From: Candidatus Nitrospira neomarina
GTDB taxonomy: Bacteria > Nitrospirota > Nitrospiria > Nitrospirales > UBA8639
NCBI RefSeq assembly: GCF_032051675.1
Contig: NZ_CP116968.1
Coordinates: 806,001 to 870,000 of the forward strand
Length of the DNA: 64,000 bases
Reading direction: 5' to 3'
Every line of letters starts with the position of its first letter. Positions within the stretch are counted from its first letter, which is position 1. This document shows positions 4,933 to 37,281 of the stretch, piece by piece. A program made the position numbers and the translations under genes. Under the pieces are notes generated by a model. The model was given only the letters and a program-made list of their open reading frames with translations. It searched no databases and was not told where the DNA came from.

Positions 4933-6063
4933 ATGCCAAAAATCTTCTTAGTGACCGGTGAAACATCTGGCGATATTCACGGAGCGCACTTAGCCCTGGC
5001 ACTTCGGGAACTGAATCCCGCTGTGGAATTAATCGGTGTGGGTGGGAGTCGGATGTTGGCAGCCGGGGTCTCGCTTCTTCCCCATGTCAAACGGGTAGAT
5101 GCCATGGGCGTTCCGGGGATCCGGCAGCTCATACAGGGGTGGAAGACCCTACGAACGCTGACTCGTTACCTCCAACGTGAACGGTTTGACGTCATTATCC
5201 TTATCGACAGTCCGGGATTGAATCTTCGCCTGGCCAAGGCCATCGCACAACGGTCATGCAAAATTATCTATTACATTGCCCCTCAGGTGTGGGCATGGGG
5301 AAGCCGTCGTATCACAGTCATTCGAAGAGTGGTCAGCCATGTGTTAGCGATTCTTCCATTCGAAGAGGCCTATTTTCAAAAAGCCGGCATTCCCTGCACG
5401 TATGTTGGCCATCCATTATTGGATGAGCTAAAGCCTGCCTATGATATGGTGCATGAGCGTCAGGAATTAGGTTTGAACAGAGAGGATCTGGTGATCGGTC
5501 TGCTGCCCGGGAGTCGTGTCCGGGAAGTCCGGGAGGTGTTGCCGGCCTTCCTCCGTTCGGTTGAACAGATTCGGAATCAATACCCTAGAGTTCAAGTCCT
5601 TCTTGCGCAAGCGCATTCACTGTCCGATTCGATGATGAATGAGTTCCTTGGACATTGTAGAGAACAGGTCAAGGTAGTCAAAGGTCTGTCCAATGAGGTG
5701 ATGGCGGCGTCAAATCTTTTACTGGTGACCTCTGGGACGGCGACGTTGCAAGCGGCACTGATTGGAACACCGATGGTCGTGGTCTATCGAACATCTCCCT
5801 TGACCTATCATATTGCCAAACGGCTGGTTAAAATTCCTTATATTAGTCTAGTGAATATTTTAGCCGGTCAAGAAATTGTTCCGGAGCTAATACAGGATCG
5901 TATGACCCCGGATGATATCGCCCACGAAGCCTTAGGCATTTTGCAAGACGCTCGCCGCCAACACGACATGACCCAGGCTTTCCACACCATTCGGACTGCT
6001 CTGGGGGGGGCGGGAGCGTCGAAACGGGCTGCAGCATGTATCCTTGCTGAGGCGACCGTATGA
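4933..6063 (+). CDS. lpxB: Lipid-A-disaccharide synthase LpxB
   Basis: A GT19 glycosyltransferase joining lipid X and UDP-2,3-diacylglucosamine into the tetra-acyl disaccharide 1-phosphate at the inner membrane. The start MPKIFLVTGETSGDIHGAHL carries the GE(T/A)SGD motif. It continues with ELIGVGGSRMLAAG, LIDSPGLNLRLAK, YYIAPQVWAWG, HPLLDE and the donor-site region LLPGSR...EV, then TSGTATLQAAL. 376 aa, typical. The 3' end has a G8 run (6003-6010) in the last 20 codons. Its TGA overlaps the msbA start (ATGA), so the two are probably translationally coupled. Confidence 0.96.
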   Translation: MPKIFLVTGETSGDIHGAHLALALRELNPAVELIGVGGSRMLAAGVSLLPHVKRVDAMGVPGIRQLIQGWKTLRTLTRYLQRERFDVIILIDSPGLNLRLAKAIAQRSCKIIYYIAPQVWAWGSRRITVIRRVVSHVLAILPFEEAYFQKAGIPCTYVGHPLLDELKPAYDMVHERQELGLNREDLVIGLLPGSRVREVREVLPAFLRSVEQIRNQYPRVQVLLAQAHSLSDSMMNEFLGHCREQVKVVKGLSNEVMAASNLLLVTSGTATLQAALIGTPMVVVYRTSPLTYHIAKRLVKIPYISLVNILAGQEIVPELIQDRMTPDDIAHEALGILQDARRQHDMTQAFHTIRTALGGAGASKRAAACILAEATV

Positions 6064-7814
6064 AGACCTTCTGGCGAATCGTGTCTTATCTGAAGGGGTA
6101 CCGCCTGCGGTTGCTTGGCGCGTTTGTCTGTTCTGCCGGGGTGGCAGGATTATCAGCGGTCTATGCGTGGCTTGTCCAACCGGTTCTGGATGGAATTTTC
6201 ATTGAGCGCAATCAAGAGATGTTGCTCATCCTTCCGTTGGCTGTCCTGGGTGTCGCAATTTTGAAAGCCTCTTTTGCCTATGGACAGGGTTATCTCATGA
6301 GTTATGTGGGCCACTGGCTGGTGTCCGATATTCGCCAACAATTGTTTATTCATATCGTGCGCCTGCCTATTCGGTTTCACGATGCGAATACGTCAGGACG
6401 GTTGATGGCCAGGGTGATTAGCGATGTCAACGAAATGGCAAATGCCATTCCCAGTGTGTTGAAGGATATCTTTCAACAGGGGCTCACGTTTGTGGCGATG
6501 CTGTCCGTGGTCTTTTATCAAAATTGGAAACTCGCGACGATTGTGTTGGTCGTATTACCCTTCTCTTCATTGGTGTTGATCCGCGTCGGCCGGCGGATTC
6601 GAAAACTTTCAAAGCGTGGTCAGGAATCCATTGGAAGAATGGCTTCCGTCTTAAAAGAAGCGTTTTCCGGTATCAAGATCGTGAAGGCCTACGGTCAGGA
6701 AGAAAAGGAGGCTGACCGATTCTCGTTGACGAATCAAGCCTTTCGGACAGCAAAAGTGAAGTCGTCTCAAACCTCAGCGATGGCCTCTCCACTTCTTGAA
6801 GTCATTGGAGTCTGCGGTGTGGCCTTTATTATCTGGTATGGGGGAGGATTAGTCATTGCCGGAGAGATGAAGCCGGGAGAGTTCTTTTCCTTTTTGGCTG
6901 CCATGTTCATGGCGTATGCCCCTCTCCGGAAAATGTCCGGGGCCAATGAGTCGGTTCAGCGTGCGCTTGCGGGGGCTCAGCGAGTGTTTCAAGTCCTGGA
7001 TCTGGAAAGTGAATTAGCGAAAGACGAGGGCAAAAAAATTCTTCCTCCCATGACGAAAAATTTGGAATTTTCCGGTGTCAACTTCAGGTATGAGGGCTCT
7101 GACGAGGCGGCCTTGCACGGGATCAATTTCACGATCAACGTCGGGGAAGTGGTGGCCTTCGTCGGGGCCAGTGGTAGTGGAAAAACCACTCTCGTGAGTT
7201 TGGTCCCACGGTTTTATCGCCCGACAGAAGGAGCCGTGAAAATTGATGGTGAGGATATTCGCCTGGTTGATCGATCGTCGCTGAGGCGGCAGATTGGCAT
7301 CGTGTCTCAAGAAACCGTGTTATTTGATGATACGATCAGAAATAATATCGCCTATGGCCGTCTGGATGCGAGTGAAGAGGCGGTCATTGAGGCGGCTCGC
7401 GCCGCCTTTGCCTGGGAATTTATTGAGCGGCTCCCTCAGGGGCTGGATACGCTGGTTGGTGAAAATGGACTACGATTATCGGGAGGACAACGTCAACGAC
7501 TCGCGATTGCCAGGGCCATTCTGCGGGATCCCCCGATTCTGATTCTGGACGAGGCGACGTCCGCTCTGGATTCGGAATCTGAGAAGTTGGTGCAAAAAGC
7601 TCTGGCAAATCTGGTAAAAGCCCGAACGACCCTGATCATTGCCCACCGATTGTCCACGGTGCAACATGCCGATCGTATTGTGGTGATGAATCGCGGAAAA
7701 ATTGAAGAGATCGGCACTCATGCCACCTTGCTTCAACAGGGAGGCCTCTATACTCGATTGTATCAAACGCAATTTTTACTAACTCAACCCGAACCGTTAC
7801 CGACGACCTCCTAA
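6060..7814 (+). CDS. msbA: Lipid A export ATP-binding/permease protein MsbA
   Basis: A homodimeric ABC flippase that moves core-lipid A across the inner membrane. The N-terminal half (residues 1-300) has about six transmembrane helices and the coupling region (AYGQEEKEADRF). The C-terminal half is a complete ATPase: Walker A GASGSGKTT, Q-loop IVSQETVLFDDTI, signature LSGGQRQRLAIARAI, Walker B ILILDEATSALDSESE and the switch His in IIAHRLSTVQHADRI. 584 aa matches MsbA (582 in E. coli). ATG 6060 overlaps the lpxB stop by 4 bases. Placement between lpxB and the KDO transferase supports MsbA over a generic exporter. Confidence 0.94.
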   Translation: MKTFWRIVSYLKGYRLRLLGAFVCSAGVAGLSAVYAWLVQPVLDGIFIERNQEMLLILPLAVLGVAILKASFAYGQGYLMSYVGHWLVSDIRQQLFIHIVRLPIRFHDANTSGRLMARVISDVNEMANAIPSVLKDIFQQGLTFVAMLSVVFYQNWKLATIVLVVLPFSSLVLIRVGRRIRKLSKRGQESIGRMASVLKEAFSGIKIVKAYGQEEKEADRFSLTNQAFRTAKVKSSQTSAMASPLLEVIGVCGVAFIIWYGGGLVIAGEMKPGEFFSFLAAMFMAYAPLRKMSGANESVQRALAGAQRVFQVLDLESELAKDEGKKILPPMTKNLEFSGVNFRYEGSDEAALHGINFTINVGEVVAFVGASGSGKTTLVSLVPRFYRPTEGAVKIDGEDIRLVDRSSLRRQIGIVSQETVLFDDTIRNNIAYGRLDASEEAVIEAARAAFAWEFIERLPQGLDTLVGENGLRLSGGQRQRLAIARAILRDPPILILDEATSALDSESEKLVQKALANLVKARTTLIIAHRLSTVQHADRIVVMNRGKIEEIGTHATLLQQGGLYTRLYQTQFLLTQPEPLPTTS

Positions 7815-7833: not shown

Positions 7834-8558
7834 ATGTTGAATTGGATCAAACTGTCCGTCGCTCCGCCATTGGCCGCACACATGATTCGCATGTTGGGGC
7901 ATACGATGCGTATATCCACTGTCGGTGGGGAAGCCGTGGACGAGTTGTATCGCCAAGGCCGAAAGATCATTATTGCCTTTTGGCATGGCCGTCAGTTGAT
8001 GATGCCGTTGGCCTACCGTGGGCAACAGGCCTCAATTTTGATTAGCCAACATCGGGATGGAGAAATCATCGCGCGAATCATGGGATATTTCGGATTTCAG
8101 TCCATTCGCGGGTCGAGCACACGCGGGGGAATTCGAGCGACCAGGCAATTGTTGAAGGCTGGCCGGAATGGCGGGGATCTGGTTGTGACGCCCGATGGCC
8201 CGAAGGGACCGGCCTGCACGGTACAATCGGGAGTGATTTACCTGGCAAAGGCAACGGGATTGCCCATCATTCCTTTAACCTTTGCCTGCTCAAAAAAAAA
8301 GTTTTTACGAGTTGGGATCGTTTCCAGATACCCTATCCCGGTGGGGTCGGGTTGTTTGTATGGGGCCCACCCATCTGGGTAAGCCAGGATCTTTCGAACG
8401 AGCAGCTGTCCGGTCCGGGGTTGGAGCTGGAAGGTTCGCTGAACCGGCTCACGGCTCAAGCGGAATTGGCTGTTCAGGATTCGGACCCGGTTGAATCATT
8501 TCTCCGCCGAATGTCTTCCCGGAATCTGATTGATATAAATGAGACCTTCGATCGGTGA
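7834..8558 (+). CDS. DUF374 lysophospholipid acyltransferase-like protein, broken by a -1 base frameshift in an A9 tract
   Basis: Resembles the LPLAT-like DUF374 family, often coded beside waaA. Frame 1 (start ATG 7834; TTG 7816 also in frame) shows IIAFWHGRQLMMPLAY, SQHRDGEIIARIMGYFGF, RGSSTRGG and TPDGPKGPACTVQSG, ending at a stop at 8380-8382. The expected C-terminus is in another frame: after the A9 run (8292-8300) it reads VFTSWDRFQIPYPGG, then GLFVWGPPIWVSQD and a helical tail to the TGA at 8558. One extra A restores a single ~242-residue protein, and the tail then overlaps the waaA start by 20 bp, the usual coupling here. Either a sequencing/assembly error, a real mutation, or slippage. 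NodB- or LpxL-type enzymes are less likely. Confidence 0.8.
8292..8300 (+). other. A9 homopolymer at the frameshift point of the DUF374 gene
   Basis: Nine consecutive A preceded by C and followed by GTTTTT. As read, the frame gives SKKKFLRVG and soon stops; with ten A it gives SKKKVFTSWDRF, matching the family. A9 runs are prone to polymerase slippage in replication and transcription and also to base-calling errors. Confidence 0.75.
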
Positions 8559-9927
8559 CCGAATCATGTATTATGTAATATATAATGTGCTGCTGGTTCT
8601 GGCCTTTCCCATTATCATCGGTCTTCTGCTGACAAAAAAACGCAGTCAACGCGGCCTATGGTGCCGGCTTGGGGCCGTTCCTGCCGAATTGCGGGATCTG
8701 CAAAAACCGGTCATCTGGATTCATGCCGTCTCCCTGGGCGAGGTGGCCACAATCGTTCCTCTGCTCCACGCGATGAAAGCACGGTATCCTCAATGGCCGT
8801 TGGTCGTGTCCACGGTGACGGAGACCGGTCGGGAAGTTGTGATCAAGCGTTTGGAGGGTGTGGCTGTCCATTGTTATGCTCCCGTTGATTTTTGGTGGGC
8901 GGTTGACCGGTATATCCGTATACTTCAGCCTCAGCTCTTTATTTTGGTCGAATCCGAATTCTGGCCCAATCTGCTGAAAAATCTTGAACGGCATCGGGTG
9001 CCGATCTGTCTTGTCAACGGGAGAATCTCTTCACGATCCTTTGCCAGATATCGCTGGGTCAGAGGTATGATGAAGCAGGTGTTGAGCTGTCTCGATCTGG
9101 CCTTAATGCAATCGGAACACGATGCTGAGCGCATCGGCCGGTTAGGGGCCGAGCCAAATACTATTCATGTCACCGGGAATATGAAGTTTGATCAAGGGCT
9201 TGGGCAAGGACATTCTGCCGATACTCATGTTTCTTTCAGAGCACTCTTCGCGTGCCAAGCTGCTGAGGTACTCATTGTGGCCGGGAGTACGCACCCTCAG
9301 GAAGAAGAGTGTTTGTTGGATGCGTACCGGCAGGTGATTGCCCAACACCCACAGGCGGTACTGGTGATGGCTCCACGCCATATCGAGCGTGCGGCTGCGC
9401 TTGAAAAGGTTATTCAACAGTATGGATTCGCTTGTGTCCGTCGCAGCCGGTTGGTGAAGGATGTCGGAGAACAGGCTTTTCAGAAGGGCCCCCGTGTCAT
9501 TGTGTTAGACACCAGAGGGGAGTTGGCCTTTGTCTACCGGGAGGCCTGGGTCACTTTTGTGGGAGGTACACTGGTTCCGGTTGGCGGACATAATTTGTTG
9601 GAACCTGCACAATGGGGTCGCCCCGTTCTATTTGGTCCCTATGTCGATCATTGCCGGGACATTGCCGGACGGCTTCTGAGAGCAGGGGGAGGCATACAAA
9701 TTCAGAATCAGGAGGATTTGGCCTCTCAATGGGTTCGTTTGATCGCGCATCCTTCAGCAGCCGAAGAGATGGGCCAAAGGGCGTTGGAAATGGTCCGGAC
9801 CCATGGGGGCGTCATCACCAGGAATCTTCAATGGATTGATCAACTCTTGAACAAGGACAATTCGGCCTTTTTTTCTTTGTCGGCGAAAGGGCCTTCTTCA
9901 CGCAAATCTCAAGAAGTGCTCCGATAA
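8539..9927 (+). CDS. waaA: 3-deoxy-D-manno-octulosonic acid (KDO) transferase WaaA
   Basis: Adds KDO from CMP-KDO to lipid IVA at the cytoplasmic face of the inner membrane. An N-terminal membrane anchor (MYYVIYNVLLVLAFPIIIGLL in frame) leads to WIHAVSLGEVATIVPLL, with the catalytic Glu of the conserved SLGE motif. Then come STVTETGREV, ESEFWPNLL, LVNGRISSRSF, VTGNMKFDQ, VAGSTHPQEEE, APRHIERA and the C-terminal sugar-nucleotide site FVGGTLVPVGGHNLLEPAQWG. 462 aa, slightly long because of a Ser/Lys-rich tail. The start ATG 8539 lies inside the end of the preceding reading frame; ATG 8566 is an alternative. Mono- or bifunctionality cannot be read from sequence. Confidence 0.95.
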   Translation: MRPSIGDRIMYYVIYNVLLVLAFPIIIGLLLTKKRSQRGLWCRLGAVPAELRDLQKPVIWIHAVSLGEVATIVPLLHAMKARYPQWPLVVSTVTETGREVVIKRLEGVAVHCYAPVDFWWAVDRYIRILQPQLFILVESEFWPNLLKNLERHRVPICLVNGRISSRSFARYRWVRGMMKQVLSCLDLALMQSEHDAERIGRLGAEPNTIHVTGNMKFDQGLGQGHSADTHVSFRALFACQAAEVLIVAGSTHPQEEECLLDAYRQVIAQHPQAVLVMAPRHIERAAALEKVIQQYGFACVRRSRLVKDVGEQAFQKGPRVIVLDTRGELAFVYREAWVTFVGGTLVPVGGHNLLEPAQWGRPVLFGPYVDHCRDIAGRLLRAGGGIQIQNQEDLASQWVRLIAHPSAAEEMGQRALEMVRTHGGVITRNLQWIDQLLNKDNSAFFSLSAKGPSSRKSQEVLR

Positions 9928-9973: not shown

Positions 9974-11083
9974 GTGTCCTTCGTGAACACAACGTCTCCT
10001 TCCCTTGATGTGAACCCGGAACGGCTCTGGCGTTGGTTGGACCGGCGTTGCCCATGGATTCTCCGGTGGTGTGCCGTTCCCTATGGTGCAGTCGGTCATT
10101 TGCGGAGGACGGCCTATCAACGTGGCTGGTTTCCTCAACATCGACTGCCAAAACCGGTGATCAGTGTGGGCAATATGACCGTGGGGGGTACCGGGAAGAC
10201 TCCATTGGTGATGTGGTTGGCCGCCAGACTTCATGAGCGGGGCAAGCGGGTGGCGATTTTAAGCCGAGGGTATGGAAGGGAATTTTCGGCAGTGAATAGG
10301 CTGGTCTCTGACGGGGTTTCGCTGAAGGAAGATTGGCGATCGGTAGGGGATGAAGCCATGCTGATGGCGCGCAAGTGCCCATGGGCGATTGTGGCTGTGG
10401 GAACCGATCGGTATCGTCTGGGACAGTGGGTGTTAGAGCAGGCCTCATGCGATTGCTTTCTTCTTGATGATGGCTTCCAGCATCTTTCTCTCTACCGTGA
10501 TCTGGACGTGCTCGTATTTGATGTAACTGATGTTGAGGGCTTAAGGGGAGTCGTGCCCGCCGGTCGAATGCGTGAACCGCTGTCCGCAGCTAAGTGGGCC
10601 ACAACATTCGTTTTCAGTCGCACGGAACAAGTTATATCTGTCGCATCACTTCAGAATCGAATTGAACAGAGCGTGGGAACGTCGATTGTTCCCATACGTC
10701 TGGAAACCGGACCTGGAATATTCACGCATATTGCGACAGGGAAATCTCAACCGGCCGGGGCCTTCAAGGGGACATCCTGTTTGCTCTTTAGCGGGATAGG
10801 CAATCCCGCCTCCTTTCGAACGAGTGTGGTCTCCTGTGGGTTGACGGTGGGTGAGGAGATTCGGTACCCCGATCATTTTGCCTATTCAGAAAAAGATGTT
10901 GAAGCGATTCGTGTAAAGATGCGACGTGTAGGGCTCGCTCTGGCGATCACAACAGAAAAAGATGCTGTGAAAATTCGAGAGCACCTGAAATGTGATGATC
11001 CTCTATGGTCGTTGGATGTGCAAGTCCGGATAACTCAAGGGGAAGACCAGTTACGTGAACAGGTCCATACCATCTGCCCATAG
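9974..11083 (+). CDS. lpxK: Tetraacyldisaccharide 4'-kinase LpxK
   Basis: Phosphorylates the 4' position of the lipid A disaccharide. It shows the family's P-loop region ISVGNMTVGGTGKTPLVMWL, then AILSRGYGRE, VGDEAMLMARKCP, LLDDGFQH and DVLVFDVTD, and the C-terminal TTEKDAVKI. 369 aa, a little above the usual 330-350. The start is uncertain: GTG 9974 and GTG 9983 are the upstream in-frame candidates and neither has its own Shine-Dalgarno. A strong one (AAGGAGAG) sits before an out-of-frame ATG 9960 whose 8-codon reading frame ends at TGA 9984-9986, overlapping GTG 9983. That arrangement suggests coupling through a mini-ORF. Confidence 0.94.
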   Translation: MSFVNTTSPSLDVNPERLWRWLDRRCPWILRWCAVPYGAVGHLRRTAYQRGWFPQHRLPKPVISVGNMTVGGTGKTPLVMWLAARLHERGKRVAILSRGYGREFSAVNRLVSDGVSLKEDWRSVGDEAMLMARKCPWAIVAVGTDRYRLGQWVLEQASCDCFLLDDGFQHLSLYRDLDVLVFDVTDVEGLRGVVPAGRMREPLSAAKWATTFVFSRTEQVISVASLQNRIEQSVGTSIVPIRLETGPGIFTHIATGKSQPAGAFKGTSCLLFSGIGNPASFRTSVVSCGLTVGEEIRYPDHFAYSEKDVEAIRVKMRRVGLALAITTEKDAVKIREHLKCDDPLWSLDVQVRITQGEDQLREQVHTICP

Positions 11084-36137: not shown

Positions 36138-36489
36138 TCCGATATTCTTTTTTCTTACCTCCGATTTGCGCGGTAGGTACCCCCTCTCAGGGTGGCACTG
36201 TATCGATCCTGCTACCAAAAGTTTTCTTCCATTGAAACCCGGGACAGCCATTGCTTTTTTCCCCCGCAGTGAGTCGCTTTGATCATCGCCTCGCGCACCC
36301 ATCCCGTGGAGAGATCATGGTTGTTTTGGGCCTCATGCTCGACGCGAATGATGCTGGCTCCGGGCCAATCCACCTTGTGTCAACCAAGAAAAAAAAATGG
36401 AAAAATTCGTATAATCGTCGATCTGTGCCACGAAAAGTATTGGGGGAGTTTTCCAATCATCAATATCGATAGGAGGAATGGAACATTTG
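36138..36489. other. Intergenic stretch with a candidate promoter
   Basis: No gene seen. Holds a consensus -10 TATAAT (36410-36415) preceded by an A9 run (36389-36397) at the place of the -35 box, about 75 bases before the next gene, and AGGAGGA (36471-36477) just before it. A promoter driven by an A-rich upstream element is plausible but unproven. Confidence 0.4.
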
Positions 36490-37281
36490 ATGCTCAGTCT
36501 TAAAAAGATTCTGGCCTCATTTTTTTCTCCTCTCTCTCTGTGTATAGAGATCATAGTTTGCGGGCTGGTCTTTTTGTATTTTTCCCGCAAGCAATATCTT
36601 GGGAAAGTCCTGGTCTCCCTGGGATTCATTCTGCTTGTCATCAGCGGTTATGAAGGAATCTCAGGGCGTATCATACGTACGTTGGAGTCCCAATATCCTC
36701 CTATTAATCTTTCCCAGGTGCTGACTTCTGGGAATATCACAAATACACAAGAATCCCTGAAATGGATTGTTGTCCTGGCCAGCGGCACTGCAGGAGATGC
36801 CACGTTGCCTTATCAGCTTCGAGTGTCTCATCATTCCCGTGTTCGATTAATGGAAGGCATTCGGCTTCATCGCATGCTCCCCGGAAGTAAAATCATTCTG
36901 ACAGGCGGGACGGGGTTTGAGGGGTCTCCTGAAGCGACCACAATGAGTCGAGTTGCCGAGGAATTAGGGGTCAATCGGGCAGATATGGTTCTGGAGGTTG
37001 AATCCCGTGATACCAAGGACCATCCTCTGTATGTTCGGGATATCGTCCATGATGAGCCTTTTATCTTGGTGACAAGTGCTTTCCACATGCCACGTGCGGT
37101 CAAATTATTCGAGAAACAGGGTCTATTTCCAATTCCGGCTTCCACAGGACAATGGGTTCCTCCTATGCAGTTTTGGTCTTTAGTGAACTTTTTCCCGAGT
37201 TCCTCTGGAGTGCGCCTTGCCGAATTGGCTTATCATGAATATATGGGATTATTGGAGGCCTGGGTTCAAGATCAGATTTAA
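36490..37281 (+). CDS. DUF218 membrane protein, ElyC/SanA/YdcF family
   Basis: Two N-terminal membrane helices, then an extracytoplasmic DUF218 domain: KWIVVLASGTAGD, SRVRLMEGIRLHRMLPGSKI, ILTGGTGFEGSPEATTMSRV, VLEVESRDTKDH and LVTSAFHMPRAVKLFEKQGL. 263-267 aa. E. coli ElyC affects undecaprenyl-phosphate/peptidoglycan metabolism at low temperature; biochemical role not settled. AGGAGGA sits directly against ATG 36478, so translation more likely begins at TTG 36487 or ATG 36490, 10-13 bases on. Confidence 0.84.
   Translation: MLSLKKILASFFSPLSLCIEIIVCGLVFLYFSRKQYLGKVLVSLGFILLVISGYEGISGRIIRTLESQYPPINLSQVLTSGNITNTQESLKWIVVLASGTAGDATLPYQLRVSHHSRVRLMEGIRLHRMLPGSKIILTGGTGFEGSPEATTMSRVAEELGVNRADMVLEVESRDTKDHPLYVRDIVHDEPFILVTSAFHMPRAVKLFEKQGLFPIPASTGQWVPPMQFWSLVNFFPSSSGVRLAELAYHEYMGLLEAWVQDQI

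Follow-up and report, generated by a model that had tools for sequence, protein, structure and literature searches.

A split lipid A acyltransferase gene of Nitrospirota with a conserved A run and a probable dependence on transcriptional slippage

Programmed transcriptional slippage is already known from Thermus dnaX, Shigella mxiE, insertion sequences (IS) and Citrobacter tssM. Bacterial RNA polymerase slips efficiently at nine A or T (PMC5009743), and many genomes show selection against A/T runs of this length (PMC1088944). Only a small number of cellular bacterial genes are known to depend on the process, most of them with a restricted distribution. In dnaX of Thermus thermophilus, a cellular gene, slippage at nine A of the sense strand yields two product sizes (PMC1088944, PMC5009743), the templated frame encoding the long product and slippage giving rise to the short one. 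In Shigella flexneri mxiE, a regulator gene of one bacterial group, two overlapping open reading frames (ORFs) are joined by one untemplated base at a run of U, and the long product needs slippage (PMC1088944). In Citrobacter rodentium tssM, slippage is reported to rescue an interrupted secretion gene of one species, resulting in two length variants (PMC4256274). Here, we describe a gene on the forward strand (positions 7834-8558) of a 64,000-nucleotide (nt) stretch of the Candidatus Nitrospira neomarina chromosome (NZ_CP116968.1, 806,001-870,000; hereafter the window). This gene likely codes for a functional lipid A secondary acyltransferase of the LpxJ type (DUF374), full-length synthesis of which would require slippage. 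The locus resembles dnaX in its nine A and two expected product sizes, except that slippage would be required for the long, active product; it shares the two joined frames with mxiE, yet has an A run, lies in a chromosomal lipid A enzyme gene and extends across a phylum. Compared with what is described for tssM, the arrangement would be ancient and widespread.

Frame 0 of this gene, entered at ATG 7834, reads ...TFACSKKK into an uninterrupted run of nine A (A9; 8292-8300, frame-0 context TCA AAA AAA AAG), the proposed slippage site, and then stays open to a stop at 8380-8382, giving 182 amino acids (aa), or 188 aa from a possible alternative start at TTG 7816. The part upstream of the run (7834-8291) matches PF04028 (DUF374) with an E-value of 1.3e-28 (98.8 bits against a cut-off of 26.8) and is conserved in all relatives. 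The C-terminus expected of the family (VFTSWDRFQIPYPGG...FVWGPPIWV) lies in the −1 frame (open from 8301 up to the TGA at 8556-8558) and is homologous to that of in-frame relatives, whereas the frame-0 reading of 8302-8382 is a non-homologous tail. Adding one A at the run joins both frames into a protein of 241 residues. An earlier note, made from the letters of this DNA, had placed the break of the DUF374 frame at the same A9, with the C-terminus continuing in another frame, and had expected ten A to give a single protein of ~242 residues; the sequence confirms both. The A9 run alone is not rare, with two in the window against 1.6 expected and 69 overlapping matches in the one-contig genome of 4.80 Mb. 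Judged by comparison with relatives, what goes beyond chance is the frame change at the same exact place in 111 distinct loci.

These loci were gathered from the order and the phylum and classed by separate profile searches for each half of the gene. Duplicate removal left 149, of which 111 are frame-changed and 38 single-frame. At the joint, all 111 carry an unbroken run (95 with A9 and 16 with A10, none shorter), as compared to a single one of the 38 in-frame loci (genome G011, with A10 in frame). The spacing between a conserved S-W-D motif (8310-8318 in the window), invariant in alignment A1, and the Ser/Arg codon that precedes the run is 20 nt in 111 of 111. The frame change was found in at least 11 families of the phylum (f1, f2, f3, f5, f6, f8, f9, f15, f16, f19 and f26), including genomes of the window's own genus and metagenome-assembled genomes (MAGs) recorded as Nitrospira, Nitrospirales or Nitrospirota; G045 and G083, for instance, both combine A9 with the shift. 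Outgroup families f18, f21, f22 and f32 are in frame and lack the run. Homopolymers are generally error-prone, which might suggest a sequencing or assembly error in the window. However, 111 distinct loci share the frame change with constant geometry, and they come from many independent assemblies, which leaves this explanation with practically no probability.

The in-frame A10 of G011 could also be seen as the "on" state of a phase-variable locus, toggled by replication slippage against an "off" state of A9. We consider this very improbable, as the "on" state occurs in only one of 112 run-bearing loci, rather than in a mixture of in-frame and out-of-frame alleles, and as the other 16 relatives with A10 are still out of frame, their extra A having come from a substitution beside the run that leaves the geometry unchanged. 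G011 (loci L018 and L132), the sole relative with the run in frame (A10, then GTG), is a MAG of about 250 contigs, and its allele may be a true reversion or an assembly slip, both of which fit.

Stop codons in relatives narrow down where the frames are joined. In families f9 and f19, the first two A of the run are part of a −1-frame TAA, which leaves only the run itself or the sequence beyond it as the place of the shift. In f16 and f15, frame 0 ends 12-13 nt after the run start. Together, the two sets of stops locate the shift in the run. Since coupled genes can have overlapping frames (general knowledge; PMC3711429), we also considered that the locus encodes two separate proteins, the second made by reinitiation or translational coupling. 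For 69 of the 111 loci, though, the −1 frame offers no ATG, GTG or TTG after its upstream stop and ahead of the S-W-D motif. An independent start for the C-terminal part is therefore no general answer, and as in-frame relatives encode one chain, this reading deserves hardly any credence.

Next, we compared selection on the two downstream frames in seven genera of the order and one other genus of the class, using the ratio of non-synonymous to synonymous polymorphism (pN/pS). Downstream of the run, pN/pS was 0.18-0.41 in the −1 frame as compared to 1.2-1.6 in frame 0 (0.21 and 1.45, respectively, within the window's genus). This rules out both a pseudogene and a constrained frame-0 tail. Indeed, frame-0 tails vary from 5 to 92 codons across relatives, and a functional role for the tail of the short product was rejected, given that neither its length nor its sequence is conserved and frame 0 shows no selection. 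While the reading frame is broken in the DNA, as expected of a pseudogene or a plain recent frameshift mutation, decay is scarcely believable: the −1 frame is under purifying selection, the arrangement persists across several families and classes of the phylum, and the window's genome holds no second DUF374 gene. On this comparative evidence, we exclude both a sequencing error and a dead gene. The earlier note had likewise seen no decay in the downstream frame, and had favored error or slippage over decay: slippage still stands, whereas error is excluded by independent assemblies of many species. The comparison of the run in related genomes that it had proposed turned up A9 or A10 in every frame-shifted relative, and the reading as a plain mutation fails.

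In a maximum-likelihood tree of 139 proteins, the distribution of the two states needs six changes, which we read as one gain and five losses (G011, G223, G124, G420 and the f4 genomes). The gain was placed at the base of a group of 113 rows, with a support value (SH-aLRT, Shimodaira-Hasegawa-like approximate likelihood ratio test) of 94, just below the tool's starred class. Thus, the two-frame state seems to have arisen once, early in the phylum, and to have been kept thereafter. All losses other than that of G011 are accompanied by decay of the run (e.g., TCG CAC AAG CAT in G223 and GCC AAG AAA TAC in f4); it is retained only where needed. The five losses also show that the in-frame state is viable.

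What would the two products be? The essential residues of Rickettsia typhi LpxJ are W60, H61, D86, D132, W172 and D173 (PMC6148475). Read one Lys short, the joined protein of the window has W50, H51, D75, D121 and W160-D161 at matching spacing, all invariant in our alignment (A1) and assigned as equivalents from motif and spacing rather than by aligning the Rickettsia protein itself. The set of essential residues typical of DUF374/LpxJ (W-H, D, D and the region-4 W-D) is hence present, with the W-D pair encoded after the frame change. Apart from its split gene, the protein is reminiscent of LpxJ/DUF374 late acyltransferases (PMC6148475), with which it shares the PF04028 match, the conserved W-H, D-G-P and S-W-D motifs, and their spacing; the known enzymes are, as far as described, encoded in one frame. 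An AlphaFold2 model was obtained for an in-frame relative (L050; mean predicted local distance difference test score, pLDDT, 92.5), which is ~40% identical to the window protein in the shared N-terminal part. In this model, three strands and the long C-terminal helix are built from residues that follow the joint, and the best matches of the model among solved structures are PatA and LpxM. The short product should be inactive, because it stops before the S-W-D motif with the essential W-D. The earlier note's suggestion of two products is thus only half supported as far as function goes: the short form, devoid of the essential W and D, ends in an unselected tail.

Two mechanisms could join the frames, one acting in RNA polymerase and the other in the ribosome. 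In the first, polymerase would slip on A9, so that mRNAs of differing run length coexist; those that gain a single A (or 1+3n) would join the frames and give the ~241-residue enzyme, and unslipped transcripts would give the ~182-residue truncated protein without the W-D pair and without part of the fold. From the sequence patterns below, we think that transcriptional slippage on A9 probably yields the full-length product. In the second, the ribosome would undergo programmed −1 frameshifting at A AAA AAG or A AAA AAA and so make the full-length protein from a uniform A9 mRNA. An in-frame heptamer of this kind is found at every locus and the direction of the shift is always −1, both of which speak for ribosomal frameshifting; nonetheless, we hold it to be the unlikely option of the two. 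With the heptamer as the only constraint, the third Lys codon would be free to alternate between AAA and AAG in the 49 loci in which C follows the run. However, this codon is AAA in 111 of 111 loci, all 49 included, even though AAG makes up 57% of the Lys codons in the same genes, and while two other conserved Lys codons flip between AAA and AAG 17 and 15 times on the tree, those in the run never do.

Run length is constrained as well. The run starts either at the third base of the preceding codon (TCA) or at the next codon (after TCT, CGC or CGT), and where the first A is lost, it extends further at the other end, such that the ends vary and a length of at least nine is fixed, even with the start in another codon position. 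Stimulators of ribosomal frameshifting were not apparent: Shine-Dalgarno (SD)-like 4-mers precede the run in only 1 of 111 loci, and predicted RNA structure flanking it was no stronger than in control windows (downstream mean z −0.24 to −0.28). Of the hallmarks of dnaX- and IS-type −1 frameshifting, the locus therefore has the in-frame slippery heptamer, yet neither the upstream SD-like element nor the downstream structure. As for the constant −1 direction, the 20-nt geometry implies that a single ancestral indel, passed on by common descent, accounts for it. Conversely, the sequence-level hallmarks of programmed slippage are in place, i.e., two frames that correspond to a single chain in homologues, a conserved homopolymer of about nine or more at their joint, and purifying selection in the downstream frame. 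We therefore prefer transcriptional slippage to −1 ribosomal frameshifting, based on the invariant AAA, the run length of at least nine, the absence of an SD-like or structural stimulator, and the efficiency of nine A for polymerase; both processes may contribute.

Several points weigh against slippage as the basis of a working enzyme. The slippery heptamer in all loci makes −1 frameshifting possible, and at least five lineages have lost the arrangement, which is hence not indispensable. Moreover, the relatives share ancestry, so the locus counts do not represent independent events, and enzyme activity, including 3′ secondary acylation, is deduced from family and motif only.

Why would a slippage-dependent state be kept? 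An in-frame A10 allele should be easy to reach by mutation, as replication slippage in an A9 would often generate one, yet it is rare and 111 distinct loci retain the break. Its rarity suggests that a restricted output, and with it a defined level of lipid A secondary acylation, is favored. Constitutive full-length synthesis may be selected against, or a fixed ratio of products selected for; alternatively, the arrangement may be a tolerated mutational trap. More tentatively, the fraction of slipped transcripts might be a regulated dial, responsive to temperature, nucleotide pools or polymerase state, that sets lipid A secondary acylation across Nitrospirota, with in-frame alleles selected against because the output would have to remain limited or tunable. 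A literature search, with most subscription papers and the GeneTack database outside its reach, found no report linking this gene, family or phylum to slippage or frameshifting, and the phylum-wide conservation of a slippage-dependent lipid A gene appears unreported in the papers searched. What sets the case apart is its age, its wide distribution and the role of the gene: the split frame seems to have persisted, in a gene for lipid A of the outer membrane, from an early point in the history of a phylum to which major nitrite oxidisers belong. In practice, gene finders will tend to call the gene truncated or a pseudogene in these genomes, and the locus offers a direct test of why a costly-looking frame break is kept with the in-frame state one base away.

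Within the window, the gene order is lpxB-msbA-[DUF374/LpxJ-like gene]-waaA-lpxK, all on the forward strand, a neighborhood in keeping with a late acyltransferase for lipid A. The neighbors were identified as lpxB (4933-6063; TIGR00215, E 2.1e-103), msbA (6060-7814; TIGR02203, above the curated cut-off), waaA, encoding the Kdo transferase (8566-9927; PF04413, E 8.2e-64), and lpxK (9974-11083; TIGR00682, E 3.5e-63). Judged by conservation, the most likely waaA start is ATG 8566 (MYYVIYN), 7 nt after the full-length stop, rather than overlapping this stop as the earlier note had it. ATG 8539, the start of the longest waaA ORF, lies within the acyltransferase gene and is less conserved. The gap between acyltransferase stop and waaA is 7 nt in most of the window's genus and ranges from −1 to 212 nt in relatives. 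With a gap that reaches 212 nt outside the genus, coupling of waaA translation to the full-length stop was rejected as a general purpose of the arrangement.

No gene of the LpxL/LpxM family (PF03279) was detected in the window's genome (G000), nor in G001, G083 or G144; G045 and G120 contain one or two such genes. Several of these genomes may have no lipid A late acyltransferase other than the DUF374 protein. The second A9 run of the window (36389-36397, forward strand) is located upstream of a 267-aa ORF (36478-37281, forward strand); in the program-made list, the only ORF that the run overlaps is one of 102 aa on the minus strand.
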